DNA from: a virus
Reading direction: 5' to 3' (one strand)
Virus record (IMG/VR): IMGVR_UViG_3300009509_000080
Coordinates: 1 to 29,363 of that record
DNA length: 29,363 bases
Shown piece after piece: positions 9,012 through 25,908 of the stretch (the first letter of the stretch is position 1; every line of letters starts with the position of its first letter). The notes below the pieces were generated by a model. The model made no database searches, was not told the DNA's origin, and saw nothing but the letters and a program-made list of their open reading frames with translations. The position numbers and the translations under genes were made by a program.

Positions 9012-9576
9012 TATCTTCTCCTAAAAGATCATCGATGGATGCAAACTTATCGTACTCCCCATTAGCAAGAGCCTCCCGGGCATCCTCCGCTGTCCCGGAG
9101 ATCTCTTCGGCTTTCTTTTGCACCTTCTCGTTTGTAAACCCAAAGAAGGTTAGCTCATAAAGTACGTGGGCAACTGTTTCCAGGGGAGGGAGGATCGTGG
9201 AAACCTCCATCCCCATCAACTCTTCCCAGGGGGTTAACTCTAGCGCATATCCTATCTCCTTTTCTAAAAACTCCTCACTGAAACCATCCTGAGGATAGTT
9301 GTCATCCTCAGCGTATTCTTCGCCGTATGTCTTCCCGTTCTTACCATAGACGTGGCCCCAGTAATCCACATCTCCGTCCGCACCCAACTCTTCAACTATC
9401 TCAACATACATAACCATTGGATTTAGTACTGGGGTTACTTCGAGCATCTCTGTTAGCGCAGCAGCATACCCCTCCAGGTTATCTTCCTGGTCCGGGTATT
9501 GTGCAACGATCTCGTCTGCGATTTCAAACCACCCGTAGTCTTTCTTTACTTTGCGAAGGTACTCTTGTAAGATCAT
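8995..9576 (-). CDS. Unknown acidic protein, 193 residues
   Basis: I start it at ATG 9576, which shares an ATGA overlap with the previous gene and has GGAG upstream; the longer frame back to 9639 lies inside that gene and has no ribosome site. The protein is acidic throughout, with helical segments (ILQEYLRKVKKDYGWFEIADEI cut at the Trp; LPPLETVAHVLYELTFFGF) and an aromatic central part, DYWGHVYGKNGKTYGEEYAED. The C-terminus ends in an acidic tail (DDLLGEDNDN). No enzymatic motif, Cys cluster or membrane segment is seen. Confidence 0.65.
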   Translation of the reverse strand: MILQEYLRKVKKDYGWFEIADEIVAQYPDQEDNLEGYAAALTEMLEVTPVLNPMVMYVEIVEELGADGDVDYWGHVYGKNGKTYGEEYAEDDNYPQDGFSEEFLEKEIGYALELTPWEELMGMEVSTILPPLETVAHVLYELTFFGFTNEKVQKKAEEISGTAEDAREALANGEYDKFASIDDLLGEDNDNTA

Positions 9577-9764
9577 CCTAGCTCCATTATTTTCATTTTG
9601 TCTGCTTGCACGATGAACACGTTCAAATCCTCGAACCATCCGGTGTCTACAAGCTTTGCCGGGTCCACGTCTTTGGGAACAACTAATATGTAACTCTTAT
9701 TGGGGTCTAACTCTTTCGCTACTTTTTCGTAATCTGGCTTAAATATCTTACTCAAAAACGACAT
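9573..9764 (-). CDS. Small unknown protein, 63 residues
   Basis: I choose ATG 9764 because AGGAG lies 9 nt upstream; the ATG at 9773 is only a base or so from that site. The protein has a basic N-terminus (SFLSKIFKPDYEKVAKEL), then a beta-like SYILVVPKDVDPAKLV, and ends MELG. It overlaps the genes on both sides. The pattern hints at a small alpha/beta protein of unknown role. Confidence 0.6.
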   Translation of the reverse strand: MSFLSKIFKPDYEKVAKELDPNKSYILVVPKDVDPAKLVDTGWFEDLNVFIVQADKMKIMELG

Positions 9765-9972
9765 CGATTTCATCTCCTGTGGGGACTAACATGTACTCAA
9801 TTATAACAGGTTTTATGGTTTTTGTATAGATACTTCTTGTTTTCAATGCTGACTTACAGGCTGCTGCCGTGGTATAAACTCGCCCGGCCTCACTCCACTG
9901 GGGGTATGAGCCCCTCCCGGTCATGAATAGTCCGGTCTTTTTGTCCTTTATTTTGAACACTCGCTGGCACAT
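9748..9972 (-). CDS. Small unknown protein, 74 residues
   Basis: ATG 9972 has CTGGAGA 5 nt upstream. The sequence is beta-rich and basic (MCQRVFKIKDKKTGLFMTG, then WSEAGRVYTTAAACKSAL), a form I know from small phage proteins with a single compact domain that begins with K-x-G-L-F/Y. Function unknown. It is the first well-supported gene downstream of the non-coding region at 10085-10630 and probably shares its transcript. Confidence 0.65.
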   Translation of the reverse strand: MCQRVFKIKDKKTGLFMTGRGSYPQWSEAGRVYTTAAACKSALKTRSIYTKTIKPVIIEYMLVPTGDEIDVVFE

Positions 9973-10045
9973 TGTAATCTCCAGTAAACCAGAATGCACA
10001 CAACAAAACGAAAAAAATTGCGACGAGAGTCGTAGATACTAACAT
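9890..10045 (-). CDS. Possible tiny membrane protein, 51 residues
   Basis: ATG 10045 has AGGAG 8 nt upstream. The frame encodes a hydrophobic segment near its start (TTLVAIFFVLLCAFWF) and then a polar tail, like a small membrane or exported peptide. It overlaps the gene at 9748-9972 for 83 nt in another frame, which argues for caution. The ribosome site and the well-formed hydrophobic helix are the only support. Confidence 0.35.
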   Translation of the reverse strand: MLVSTTLVAIFFVLLCAFWFTGDYNVPASVQNKGQKDRTIHDREGLIPPVE

Positions 10046-10084: not shown

Positions 10085-10630
10085 ATACTGTACTTATATA
10101 TGTTCTTATATTTAGCTGCCTCCGGGTGCTCTGGAAATGAGAGCTCGAGAAAAGCCTGGGTTGACCCCTGCATAGAACATAGACTCCCCCCTACCCGCAG
10201 CTATAGATAGCTACTTAGATAGGGGGGAAGGATTGCATGAGCTGGCGTTGCCCGAGAAAGAAGCTATCCCGAGAGGGCGATTAAGAATGGGAATACCATT
10301 CGCCAAGTACCCTTTTACTCCGAGCATCCTCATCATGTAGACTTTAACTCGCCCAGGTCTGTCTTTACCGAGTGATTAATCTGTTATCTCTTTCCTCAAG
10401 AGTTACCTAATACTCTACATGATCCCATACAGGACGGGGGGTTTCGTAAGTTAACCCTGCTCTAATGGACACACCAATGCAGGTCTGGGAGTGTGCCCAT
10501 AAGTGGTGAAGTCTAGTCACCTGTCCGTCAGCAACTGGCCCAGCGACCCTACAAGGGGTCCCCGATGGCTATAAAGAAATACATCTATGTAGAGAATGCT
10601 CTCTGACCGGAACATCCCAAATGTAAACCA
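10085..10630 (-). ncRNA. Candidate large structured non-coding RNA between terminase and small genes
   Basis: This is the only gene-free stretch over 300 nt in the window. A perfect consensus promoter (10637-10665, minus) points into it, giving a start near 10630. Stems read from the sequence: 10545-10549 with 10556-10560; 10505-10509 with 10517-10521; 10467-10474 with 10491-10498 (8 bp), whose loop (10479-10483) can pair with 10456-10460 to form a pseudoknot; a perfect 10-bp long-range helix, 10332-10341 with 10414-10423, enclosing 10347-10351 with 10369-10373; 10276-10279 plus 10286-10290 pairing with 10296-10304; and a perfect 9-bp helix, 10185-10193 with 10220-10228, capped by an inner hairpin 10199-10212. 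The size and density resemble large phage RNAs such as GOLLD or ROOL, though I do not recognise either consensus. The 3' end is uncertain; no terminator is evident, so it may also act as a leader for the genes to the left. Confidence 0.62.
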
Positions 10631-10636
10631 CCTTTA

Positions 10637-10665
10637 ATTATATCACACTATTCTTATCCTGTCAA
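10637..10665 (-). promoter_or_regulatory. Perfect consensus sigma70 promoter for the non-coding RNA
   Basis: On the minus strand TTGACA (10665-10660), a 17-nt spacer and TATAAT (10642-10637) match consensus at every position, with an extended -10 TG (TGATATAAT). The -35 lies in the last codons of the terminase gene. The predicted start near 10630 is at the beginning of the gene-free structured region. Confidence 0.85.
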
Positions 10666-12530
10666 ATGGAACCATTTCCAAGCAGGATCTCCGTGATAAC
10701 CCAATCGACCACGTCTTGGGAATACTCTTGTACTGTTGTGATTTTGTAGGAAAGTGGAAAAGGTATCTCATAGTGAGGGTTATCTCTTCGGAGTAGATAC
10801 TCAGATAGCTGTTCTTTTGGAACCTCCGCAAGTTTGCTTACAATGTAGACGATGTCATCTTTTGGAGGTCGATCACTATCATCTATTTCTACAATCTCTT
10901 CTTCGACCGTTTCGCCAACGATAGCAACTTTTCCTCGCTTTCCTTTATCGATATCCATGGCAATACCCAGGTAACCCATAGCATGTGCCAAGTGGTCCAT
11001 TCTCAGCTTTCTGTAAACACCAACCTCTATTATACCAGATCTTGTGGTGCGCTCTTCGACATCTCTCTTCAATGCTGTGACATGGTCAATCAGCAACTCT
11101 ACTTCTGGGCTCAGGTTTGGAGGCTCTCCGTATAGTTGCCACTCACCCTTCTTTATGCTTTCCATGAGATCGTCAAACATAGTTGTTCTGTGCAAGGTTA
11201 CGTTGGTAGTATATTTTTGCCCTTGCTTGTTTGTCTTCCAGCGGGTCTTCTGCTGCTCGATATAATCCGCAGCCAGCAACTTTCCAGGGAATGTTTTCTG
11301 TAAAGTAAGGATTGGGTGCCTGTTCGGGTTCCCGTCCCATACAGCACGCTTGATGCGAAACAACTTCATCAACTTTGCTGCACGATCGAAACCATCTTCC
11401 ATGGGGATAAACTCGATATGCACGATTTTACGTAACCTGGATTCTGGTTCAATCTTCCCAATAACTACCTGGAGCTCGTTGCCCTGGTCCAGTCCCATAT
11501 AGTATTTGGACCTGTCATCGGGGGACATTTCAGGAAGGTAGGGGTCATCAAAGCAGGTTACCAGGAAGTCTTCACGCTCGATACTACCACCTCCCAACTG
11601 GAAAGGCTCTCCAAGACGCTTGCGGTAAAACTCCAGTAGCTTAGTCTGGGGGTCCCGGTACGATGCGTATAGCTCGGATGCCGGGTGTGTCATCATTTGG
11701 CTTATGTGATAACCACGATGTTCATCGCTCTTATCGGGCTTTTCGGGTACCCATTGTCCGTATTCGTTGATCTCTTCTACGCTCAACTCCCGGTCACACT
11801 TGGCACATCCATAGTAAACTTTGGTAGGAGAATCTGGAGATCCCAAAACCTTAACATTTACATTGAAGTCCAGCACTTGCTGCTCTCCACAAGACGGGCA
11901 CTTCACCATCCACTTCCTCATGTCAGTATTGGAGTAGATAGCATTGATGCCATAGTTTGCCAAAGTTGGGGTAGATAACGTGTTGCTCAGTTTCCACCTG
12001 GACGCATCCAAACGGTTGAGAACCGTAGCCATGTGATCGATGTTTGATAGGTCAACCTCGTCAATGATAGCCATATCAGAAGGTAGCATACGGGGCTCTG
12101 TAGTAAGCTCCGATATGTACATATAGCTATTACCTATTCTTTTGGCATGGTTGGAGTTTGGCTCTCCCATCAGACCACTTAAGAACGGGGAGGCCTGGAT
12201 AGTTGGGTCTAAACGTGTACCAGAAAAGTCCCCAACATCTGTCAATCTGGGTAACGTGTAAAAGACACGCACATTCCAGTTAGACAGGAAGTGGAGGGCC
12301 TTTACCATCATCAGGGTAGTAATCCCTGCCTGAGTGCTTTTTTGGATTGCTAACTTACGTGGCTTACCGACCGGGTACTTCTCTATCTCCCAGGGATTTC
12401 CGACAGAGTATATCTCGGGCAACCATTTCCAGACGTGCCAAGACTTGTCGTCCAGGAGGTCTATGTTTAGGATGCCGAAAGATAAGGGGTCCCGGAGGGC
12501 TAAGCTTTCTAACTCAGTCTTACTTACCAT
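10662..12530 (-). CDS. terL: Terminase large subunit (GpA-type)
   Basis: A protein of 622 residues, the ATPase-nuclease motor that cuts and packages phage DNA. The N-terminal ATPase has a Walker A-like KSTQAGIT (64-71) after an AIQ strand, and Walker B MAIIDEVD (153-160). A zinc-binding knuckle, CPSC...CAKC (Cys211, 214, 242, 245), separates it from the nuclease, a feature of lambda GpA-like large terminases. The RNase-H-like nuclease shows GLDQGN (Asp348), AVWDGNPN (Asp399) and RMDHLAHAMGY near the C-terminus. The start overlaps the previous gene by 11 nt. A small-terminase candidate lies two genes upstream. The length is usual for GpA-type proteins, and the C-terminus beyond the nuclease is acidic then hydrophobic. 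Confidence 0.92.
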   Translation of the reverse strand: MVSKTELESLALRDPLSFGILNIDLLDDKSWHVWKWLPEIYSVGNPWEIEKYPVGKPRKLAIQKSTQAGITTLMMVKALHFLSNWNVRVFYTLPRLTDVGDFSGTRLDPTIQASPFLSGLMGEPNSNHAKRIGNSYMYISELTTEPRMLPSDMAIIDEVDLSNIDHMATVLNRLDASRWKLSNTLSTPTLANYGINAIYSNTDMRKWMVKCPSCGEQQVLDFNVNVKVLGSPDSPTKVYYGCAKCDRELSVEEINEYGQWVPEKPDKSDEHRGYHISQMMTHPASELYASYRDPQTKLLEFYRKRLGEPFQLGGGSIEREDFLVTCFDDPYLPEMSPDDRSKYYMGLDQGNELQVVIGKIEPESRLRKIVHIEFIPMEDGFDRAAKLMKLFRIKRAVWDGNPNRHPILTLQKTFPGKLLAADYIEQQKTRWKTNKQGQKYTTNVTLHRTTMFDDLMESIKKGEWQLYGEPPNLSPEVELLIDHVTALKRDVEERTTRSGIIEVGVYRKLRMDHLAHAMGYLGIAMDIDKGKRGKVAIVGETVEEEIVEIDDSDRPPKDDIVYIVSKLAEVPKEQLSEYLLRRDNPHYEIPFPLSYKITTVQEYSQDVVDWVITEILLGNGSI

Positions 12531-12876: not shown

Positions 12877-13693
12877 TGTCATTCTCCTCGATTTTTGCTG
12901 CACGAACCGCACCCTGTTCGAGCAGATATACTACTTCATAGTCCTTTGTGGACATGTTGTGTTTTGAATATAAGTGGGCATGCAGAGACTTGTACCTGTT
13001 ACCACAAATGTGGCACAGGGTACCGTCAGCACTTGTATCAAGTTTGCCCATTTCTCCATAAAGGGGACTACCATCGTCGCTCAATATTGGACCGTCTTCC
13101 ACCTTCTCATCGATAACTCTGTAAGTAGTCTCTACAGCATCGATTATCTGCCCATCATTCTGCTGCTGGAGTTTGTCGGCTATATAATCCAGGGCGTTCT
13201 CCTGGGCTTTAAATACCGTATCCCCCAACTCGTGAGTAACCTTTACATCTAGCTTTTGCCCAGAGAACAGTCCGATAACATACCGGGACTGAGCAGCAAC
13301 AACACTTAGGACTTTCGGGTCAACAAAGTGCTGGTTACCTTCATCATCCCAGTAGGCACCACTCATGCTCAAATCCAGGATCTGGTCAGACCTGTTTACA
13401 GCTTTTAGAAACTGCTGCTCGAGGCGACCCATTCTCCATTTTGTCAGCATGGATCGTCCCTGGGCCAACGTCGCTGCCATCACAGGATATTTTGTAATCC
13501 ACCTGCGAACAGTTGCTGGCTGCACGCCAACCTCGTTTGCTACATGATGTATTGGGAACCCGACAAGTAGAAGCTCTGTAGCTTCCACAACATTCTCCGG
13601 GATCTCCTCGTCTTGGTTTATTGTTTCAACAAGTCTGTCTACTATTTGGCCCCACTCTTCATCAAGAACAGGTACCATCGCTTTATCGGACAT
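12842..13693 (-). CDS. Putative small terminase subunit with C-terminal MucR/Ros-like zinc finger
   Basis: A protein of 283 residues. Residues about 38-68 form a helix-turn-helix (LLLVGFPIHHVANEVGVQPATVRRW), typical of small terminase N-termini that recognise the packaging site. Residues 85-175 are helical, fitting an oligomerisation core. The C-terminus carries CHICGNRYKSLHAHLYSKH (Cys227, Cys230, His238/240, His245) followed by NMSTKDYEVVY, which matches the zinc finger and following Tyr of Ros/MucR-type regulators. That combination is unusual. It lies two genes before the large terminase, the expected place. A GAGGGGG site precedes ATG 13693 with a 9-nt gap, and it overlaps both neighbours. 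It could alternatively be a transcription factor. Confidence 0.7.
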   Translation of the reverse strand: MSDKAMVPVLDEEWGQIVDRLVETINQDEEIPENVVEATELLLVGFPIHHVANEVGVQPATVRRWITKYPVMAATLAQGRSMLTKWRMGRLEQQFLKAVNRSDQILDLSMSGAYWDDEGNQHFVDPKVLSVVAAQSRYVIGLFSGQKLDVKVTHELGDTVFKAQENALDYIADKLQQQNDGQIIDAVETTYRVIDEKVEDGPILSDDGSPLYGEMGKLDTSADGTLCHICGNRYKSLHAHLYSKHNMSTKDYEVVYLLEQGAVRAAKIEENDNGNVVEKSTTI

Positions 13694-13913
13694 TCGTAAT
13701 TACCCCCTCAAGGTCCGTAATGTCGAGATTAATCTCGTAGGAGTTTTGTTTCTTTGTTTGCCTACGTTCCTTCTGGGTTTGTCTCCATAAATAGCGTAGC
13801 CAACCGGGCCATTGGTAGGGAGAGCTTCCGTAGACCATTTCACATTCACTGCAGATTGCAAATTGCCATGTTATCGTTTTTCCGCAGCCCGCTAAACATT
13901 TATGAGCTGCCAT
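13683..13913 (-). CDS. Small Cys-rich basic protein
   Basis: I start it at ATG 13913 (76 residues), with GGGAGG 6 nt upstream; it overlaps the regulator gene by 14 nt. Cys residues in HKCLAGCGKTI and FAICSECEM form a plausible zinc knuckle (CxxxC...CxxC). The rest is basic and aromatic (YQWPGWLRYLWRQTQKERR) and ends in an amphipathic tail. It could bind nucleic acid. Its stop overlaps the next gene. Confidence 0.6.
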   Translation of the reverse strand: MAAHKCLAGCGKTITWQFAICSECEMVYGSSPYQWPGWLRYLWRQTQKERRQTKKQNSYEINLDITDLEGVITNVR

Positions 13914-24734: not shown

Positions 24735-25520
24735 ATGTCCTATATGAGAGTTTTCGAAACAGAGGCAGAAAGGTACTATGCGCCCAAGTATGTATACAAC
24801 CCAACCAGCTTGTTATTGATGGTTGTTGGTGGTTCTCGAGCATACGGTATCGCATCTCCAACATCAGATGTCGATCTGTATGGTATCTGCATGCCCCCAA
24901 TCCAGGAAGTATTTCCTCACCTCGCCGGGTACATCCCCGGGTTTGGTAAACCCCCTTATATGTTCGAGCACTGGGATCACCAGTCCGCCCGGTATGATTT
25001 CAATGTCTACTCCCTGGTGCGCTTTTTCAATCTTGCGTCCCAGGGGAATCCAAATATCATCGAGATCTTGTATGCACAAGAGGTATTACACACAACCCCA
25101 CTCGGAGATCACATCATCAGGATCAGGGACATCTTCCTAAGTAAAGAGATCATCCCAAGATTTATGGGATACTACTATAGCCAGAAAGAGAAGATGTTCA
25201 AGTATGTTGATGCCACTCACATGGATGCCGGATATGGGACTAAGGCAGCATACCACTCTATGAGACTGCTGCTAGAGTTGGAAGATATCCTGACAACAGG
25301 ATCAATCCATCTACAGAGCAATGCCCATTTTCTACAGACTATCCGTGAAGGAAAAACGGACCCAGTGGACCTAGAGGTGTTCTTCGGCATCCAGGAAAAT
25401 AAAGTGAAAGAAGCTGCTAAAAAATCAGATCTACAAGCAAGTCCAAACTTGGACTTGATCCGTGGGTACATGGTTGGCATCATGCGGGACTACTACGATC
25501 ACCCAATATCCTGGGAGTAA
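24735..25520 (+). CDS. Pol-beta-type nucleotidyltransferase (RlaP-like)
   Basis: 261 residues; GGAG lies upstream of ATG 24735. LLLMVVGGSRAYGIASPTSDVDLYGI has the GS...DxD core (GGSRAYG at 32-38, Asp45 and Asp47), which resembles the DUF-type nucleotidyltransferase called RNA repair pathway DNA polymerase beta family (RlaP). The C-terminal helices (AYHSMRLLLELEDIL) are typical of that family. Members occur with RNA ligases or tRNA repair genes, and here the gene abuts the tmRNA/tRNA block. I see no partner ligase in the window. The substrate is not established. Confidence 0.7.
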   Translation: MSYMRVFETEAERYYAPKYVYNPTSLLLMVVGGSRAYGIASPTSDVDLYGICMPPIQEVFPHLAGYIPGFGKPPYMFEHWDHQSARYDFNVYSLVRFFNLASQGNPNIIEILYAQEVLHTTPLGDHIIRIRDIFLSKEIIPRFMGYYYSQKEKMFKYVDATHMDAGYGTKAAYHSMRLLLELEDILTTGSIHLQSNAHFLQTIREGKTDPVDLEVFFGIQENKVKEAAKKSDLQASPNLDLIRGYMVGIMRDYYDHPISWE

Positions 25521-25583: not shown

Positions 25584-25873
25584 GGGCCTGACAGGTTTCG
25601 ACAGGCAGCGGATGCTAATCTACGGGCAAAAAACCTTAGACGCCAAAGATGCGTTCACTTTTGAAGAGGTCTTCGGATCTCAGCCTTCCCTTGCTGAGGC
25701 TTTATTCAGTAAGGCCGTTGTAACAGCGTAATCTGTTACTTAGTCTGCTGGGACTTTAAACCAGCTGGTGGAGACGCTTGTCGTCCTAGACCTACCTCCC
25801 GGTCTTGATAGGGAGGACACCCGTGAAGAGACCCGAAACTGTTTGGACGGGCGTTCGAGTCGCCCCAGGTCCA
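25584..25873 (+). ncRNA. ssrA: Transfer-messenger RNA (phage-encoded)
   Basis: tmRNA rescues stalled ribosomes by acting as tRNA-Ala, then as mRNA for a degradation tag. The 5' GGGCCTG pairs with 3' CAGGTCC (25866-25872) to form the acceptor. The 3' T-arm is GGGCG-TTCGAGT-CGCCC (25849-25865). The tag frame starts with GCC at 25642, in a TTAGAC-GCC-AAA-GAT setting like that of other resume codons, and runs 29 residues (AKDAFTFEEV ... SKAVVTA) to TAA 25729. The stop lies in the loop of a hairpin (GTAACAG / CTGTTAC), as in known tmRNAs. CCA is not encoded (CCT follows the discriminator A). The long tag is unusual. SmpB must be supplied by the host. Confidence 0.9.
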
Positions 25874-25908
25874 CCTAGCCATCAAAGTAGCACAAGTGCA
25901 CAAAGCCT

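Follow-up and report, generated by a model that had tools for sequence, protein, structure and literature searches.

An EGFOA-class RNA with a conserved pseudoknotted core beside the terminase gene of a phage, and its relatives in diverse phage, prophage or plasmid-like contigs

EGFOA is an RNA class represented in Rfam by an sRNA model of 108 positions (RF02955); its likely origin is said to be Weinberg 2017, and our search of the literature found no paper discussing EGFOA RNA. Phages are known to carry other noncoding RNAs with which it can be compared. GOLLD and ROOL, often located near tRNA islands, form RNA nanocages (PMC12286853), and Staphylococcus phage K has a long noncoding RNA, lnc001 (PMC9241854). 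The DUF3800-I RNA (RF02969) is, like EGFOA, an sRNA family present in phages, although its structure is different.

The stretch of DNA analysed here (hereafter the window) is a virus record of 29,363 bases, in which ∼580 bases without a credible ORF separate a large terminase gene from a run of small genes. A sequence-only reading of this DNA had proposed that 10085-10665 specifies, on the minus strand, a structured phage RNA of no family that it recognised, and had cited GOLLD and ROOL as known large structured RNAs of phages. An Rfam search of 801 bases (E up to 5) matched EGFOA and nothing else (Table 1), so that neither the absence of a known family nor an identity with GOLLD or ROOL is supported. 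The window passes the RF02955 gathering cut-off of 37.7 bits only marginally (relatives above it score 38.5 to 69.7, and L002 and some other members score below it), but the marginal score is confirmed because homologues keep the RNA. By its sequence, the window RNA is thus a member of a known Rfam family, the EGFOA class, and not a new one.

The RNA gene and its predicted structure

The claims of a real, promoter-driven RNA in this gene-free region stood. The perfect minus-strand promoter is present, with the TG of an extended -10 in addition, and would place the transcription start near 10630, giving an RNA of about 530-550 nt directly downstream of the terminase gene. The predicted fold of the minus strand of 10085-10640 (-188 kcal/mol, z -2.94) was not equalled by any of 100 shuffled sequences, whereas the plus strand of the same region has a z of only -0.51, in agreement with the earlier description of a highly foldable RNA. 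All of the helices named in that description can be formed: the 10-bp long-range pair corresponds to the EGFOA closing stem P1, a pair given as 8 bp within 10467-10498 in fact comprises 10 bp, its possible pseudoknot is that listed as A in Table 1, and a 9-bp pair (10185-10193 with 10220-10228) lies inside the 13-bp 3' hairpin.

Table 1. Features of the terminase-RNA region, in positions of the window
Feature	Position	Strand	Remarks
Large terminase subunit (PF05876, phrog_675)	10662..12530	-	directly upstream of the RNA
Sigma-70 promoter TTGACA-17-TATAAT, extended -10 TG	10637..10665	-	12/12 matches; perfect counterpart in L002 at equal distance
RNA gene, EGFOA class, inferred extent	10097..10630	-	75% identity with L002 (504 ungapped columns); 21 compensatory pairs; fold z -2.9
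35-nt block, 5' domain	10535..10569	-	identical in L002
10-bp hairpin	10465..10500	-	10465-10474 with 10491-10500; loop contains CCCAGA (10484-10489); stem swapped for other pairs in L002 and L010
Pseudoknot A	10456..10483	-	10479-10483 with 10456-10460; CCUGC/GCAGG
Part matched by Rfam RF02955 EGFOA	10335..10494	-	37.8 bits, E 3.6e-5
CCGUC-CUGU element	10429..10437	-	CUGU (10429-10432) pairs with ACAG (10359-10362) of the P3 loop
Closing stem P1	10332..10423	-	10414-10423 with 10332-10341; helix sequence differs in most members
Small hairpin between P1 and P3	10388..10402	-	10398-10402 with 10388-10392; UA to CG in L002
P3 hairpin	10347..10373	-	stem 10369-10373 with 10347-10351; conserved loop GUAAAGACAGACCUGGG at 10352-10368
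30-nt block, ATGAGGATGCTCGGAGTAAAAGGGTACTTG	10304..10333	-	identical in L002
3' hairpin, C-run/G-run stem	10184..10229	-	10217-10229 with 10184-10196; equivalent in most EGFOA members
Next ORF, 51-aa hydrophobic peptide	9890..10045	-	Shine-Dalgarno AAGGAG; begins some 40 nt beyond the region

Two phages with related terminases retain the RNA at the same place. In L002, whose terminase is 88% identical to that of the window, the whole ∼550-nt RNA is kept, with three identical blocks of 27-35 bases, and folds at z -4.3; the compensatory pairs in Table 1 are those that RNAalifold found changed on both sides between the two sequences. L010, with a terminase of 54% identity, matches EGFOA at 38.5 bits. 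Pseudoknot A recurs in both with compensatory changes (CCUAC/GUAGG in L002, AUGGC/GCCAU in L010), and CCCAGA occupies the same hairpin loop in all three RNAs. When each sequence is shuffled, 5-12% of the shuffles form a hairpin with such a pseudoknot at any position of the stretch, so that its presence at one place in three sequences is unlikely to be due to chance. A small protein with an LDPxKxYIL motif, recognized by eye, is encoded at 9573-9773 (-) in the window and by an ORF downstream of the RNA in L010, so the order terminase, RNA, LDPxKxYIL gene seems conserved.

Relatives and the covarying core

From scans of IMG/VR and GTDB genomes with patterns of the EGFOA core, together with an Rfam search of 398 Bacillota genomes (two positives, one of them the query genome), we assembled about 20 distinct EGFOA RNAs from diverse phage, prophage or plasmid-like contigs: the window, L002, L004, L005, L007, L008, L010, L011, L012, L013, L017, L031, L033 (identical to L035), L034, L036, L037, L050, L056, L057 and L058. 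The sample is of few sequences, mostly metagenomic, and the invariance of the loop is partly selected, since exact loop patterns served to find most members. Wherever the Rfam model was run on a carrier record or genome, it matched one EGFOA RNA. Blastn searches of seven of the RNAs (window, L008, L010, L013, L017, L034, L036) against annotated phages, and of the L034 RNA against plasmids, retrieved nothing. Further pattern matches (L003, L006, L009, L015, L016, L018, L019, L048, L049, L051-L055) were discarded as chance hits, mostly within genes and without the P3 stem; such sequence-only matches in protein genes have no flanking stem. The L017 carrier, a contig of a Selenomonas ruminantium MAG, may be a plasmid or phage-plasmid, as its RNA is flanked upstream by a TnpB-type transposase-like ORF and downstream by an ORF that, by eye, is FtsZ/TubZ-like.

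Members share the P3 hairpin, whose 17-nt loop reads GUAAAG-NNAS-ACCUGGG; an upstream CCGUNCU element and the closing stem P1 are further marks of EGFOA, and all three are found in the window. There, CCCAG, CCGUNCU, P1, P3 and the loop GUAAAGNNAGACCUGGG follow one another in the same order as in RF02955. The window RNA differs from the model in lacking the hairpin after CCGUCCUAG, which is missing or altered in some other members as well, and in being about five times longer, with extra 5' and 3' domains. It differs also in a pairing that the covariance model, which contains no pseudoknots, cannot represent: the loop segment NNAS pairs with SUNN directly after the upstream CCGUN, forming a core pseudoknot.

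In a manually trimmed alignment that brings 15 members into one register, 97% of cells in the P3 stem and core pseudoknot are standard pairs, and seven of the nine pairs show double changes. Their covariation score is 0.75, compared with 0.23 for shuffled alignments (0 of 500 as high) and at most 0.12 for slid controls; the pseudoknot taken alone scores 0.52 vs. 0.17 (again 0 of 500). In L031, G-C replaces C-G at an otherwise constant pair of the pseudoknot. The predicted SUNN/NNAS pseudoknot is thus supported by covariation.

The members are not uniform. P1 helices of unrelated sequence start about 8-11 nt after the loop in most of them, and a hairpin of C-run and G-run strands, matched by few or no shuffles, lies further 3' in most, beyond the Rfam model. 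L012 has no CCGU element, and P3 is shortened or altered in L056-L058. A CCAG upstream in most members could also pair with the CUGG of the P3 loop (UCCAG/CUGGA in L058, CCCAG/CUGGG in the window), a pairing that is not provable because the sequences are too invariant.

A stand-alone RNA or a part of its neighbours

The location of the RNA beside a terminase gene had suggested a link to packaging. As a packaging RNA it would bind terminase or portal and take part in DNA packaging, much as phi29 pRNA, likewise a phage RNA specified near a packaging gene. The RNA does adjoin the large terminase, following it in the window, L002 and L010 and preceding it in L033/L035, where the terminase belongs to a family unrelated to that of the window. 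Elsewhere, however, it lies near PhoH-region, lysis, tail, primase/helicase, DNA polymerase III or ParA genes, and because most relatives are situated away from a terminase, the link is not supported in general. Nor does a terminase family common to the carriers account for the distribution, an explanation we rejected: phrog_675 was found in only four of the 12 carriers searched, some of which are fragments, and three remote relatives of the window terminase (L040-L042) gave no EGFOA match in the Rfam search. Unlike phi29, the window has a gpA-type terminase, its RNA has no Rfam match to the pRNA family, and the terminase is not a constant neighbour of the class. We consider a packaging role improbable.

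Two further alternatives concern protein genes. The RNA might be a regulatory leader, as had also been suggested, that is, a long 5' UTR controlling the small genes to its left; consistent with this, no terminator was found between the window RNA (whose 3' end is not fixed) and the next gene, and the 51-aa ORF with its ribosome site begins shortly beyond. Yet gene neighbours vary among members, with no co-oriented downstream gene kept as would be typical of an mRNA leader or riboswitch. The RNA is in all likelihood not an mRNA leader, as several relatives (L004, L031, L056, L057) have opposite-strand genes downstream; in L005, L007 and L008, moreover, a second promoter-like sequence (by eye) follows the RNA and precedes the next gene. 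A leader has a low probability, and a small protein gene concealed in the region a far lower one still. The longest internal minus-strand ORF, a 41-aa frame at 10211-10336, spans the 30-nt block identical in L002, but it has no Shine-Dalgarno sequence, and a stop codon ends its L002 counterpart at a length of about 24 codons. Of the three substitutions in the part shared with L002, at least two are in compensatory RNA pairs. In the window, L002 and the unrelated L034, promoters with 12 of 12 matches precede the loop by 268-292 nt, and in L010 one with 10 of 12 does so by 284 nt; the same test found no promoter in several other members. From these comparisons, the window very probably specifies a stand-alone RNA of the EGFOA class.

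A possible role in infection

That so diverse a set of phages has retained the core suggests a basic function during infection. We favour, with some reserve, a phage RNA that acts in trans, as a particle, in the infected cell, and in which outer domains particular to each lineage surround a conserved pseudoknotted core. Host RNA polymerase would transcribe it from its own strong sigma-70 promoter; By sequence, P1 encloses the domain with P3, and the 17-nt loop folds back to pair NNAS with SUNN; in the terminase-adjacent clade the upstream hairpin adds a second pseudoknot, and the C/G hairpin stands near the 3' end. With its fixed single-stranded segments (GUAAAG, CCGU, ACCUGGG, CCAGA) exposed, the core could bind either a partner that many hosts have in common or a second molecule of the RNA, while the outer domains might serve as a lineage-specific scaffold. 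The RNA would act as a ribonucleoprotein or RNA-only particle, and not as a regulator of the next gene. That the core binds a partner is suggested only tentatively; more speculative still is the fuller picture of EGFOA RNAs as full-length phage RNAs of 350-550 nt whose core docks onto a shared bacterial component or onto their own copies to build an RNA particle.

Should the SUNN/NNAS contact be intermolecular, the RNA might self-assemble into homo-oligomers like those of GOLLD and ROOL. Large ornate phage RNAs do so (PMC12286853), the window RNA has many short paired loops, and covariation and pair counts fit pairing in cis and in trans alike; the short distance between the two strands and their constant order, however, fit an ordinary pseudoknot, and we regard self-assembly through this contact as unlikely. 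EGFOA RNA resembles GOLLD and ROOL in being large, ornate, phage-borne, pseudoknotted and of unknown function. It differs from them in its conserved core, in having no Rfam match to either, and in its distance from tRNA genes, proximity to which is frequent, if not universal, for GOLLD and ROOL: no tRNA genes were found in 20 relative loci, and the nearest in the window is about 15 kb away.

If the docking or particle reading is true, EGFOA would be a third widespread large-RNA phage system beside GOLLD and ROOL. The set described here defines a longer RNA than the Rfam model, one that has a 3' hairpin and whose core pseudoknot covaries. It also shows this RNA, with testable promoters and boundaries, in many phage contigs that are unrelated to one another.

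Two observations concern other phage RNAs. In Staphylococcus phage K, where two lncRNA regions examined contained no EGFOA motif, the 3' end of lnc001 gives a near-threshold match to DUF3800-I (43.4 vs. 44.2 bits, E 2.8e-5) at 13632-13768 of the phage (L047 1133-1269, minus strand), a match that may identify this known phage lncRNA. The window itself carries a tmRNA at 25584-25876 (+) whose predicted tag, AKDAFTFEEVFGSQPSLAEALFSKAVVTA, is unusually long and ends in VVTA instead of the usual LAA; no tmRNA was found in the scanned 40 kb of the L002 contig (L029, L030). The window tmRNA adjoins tRNAs for Ala, Thr, Gly and Trp, and a gene for an RlaP-type RNA-repair protein (24735-25520, plus strand) directly precedes the cluster.
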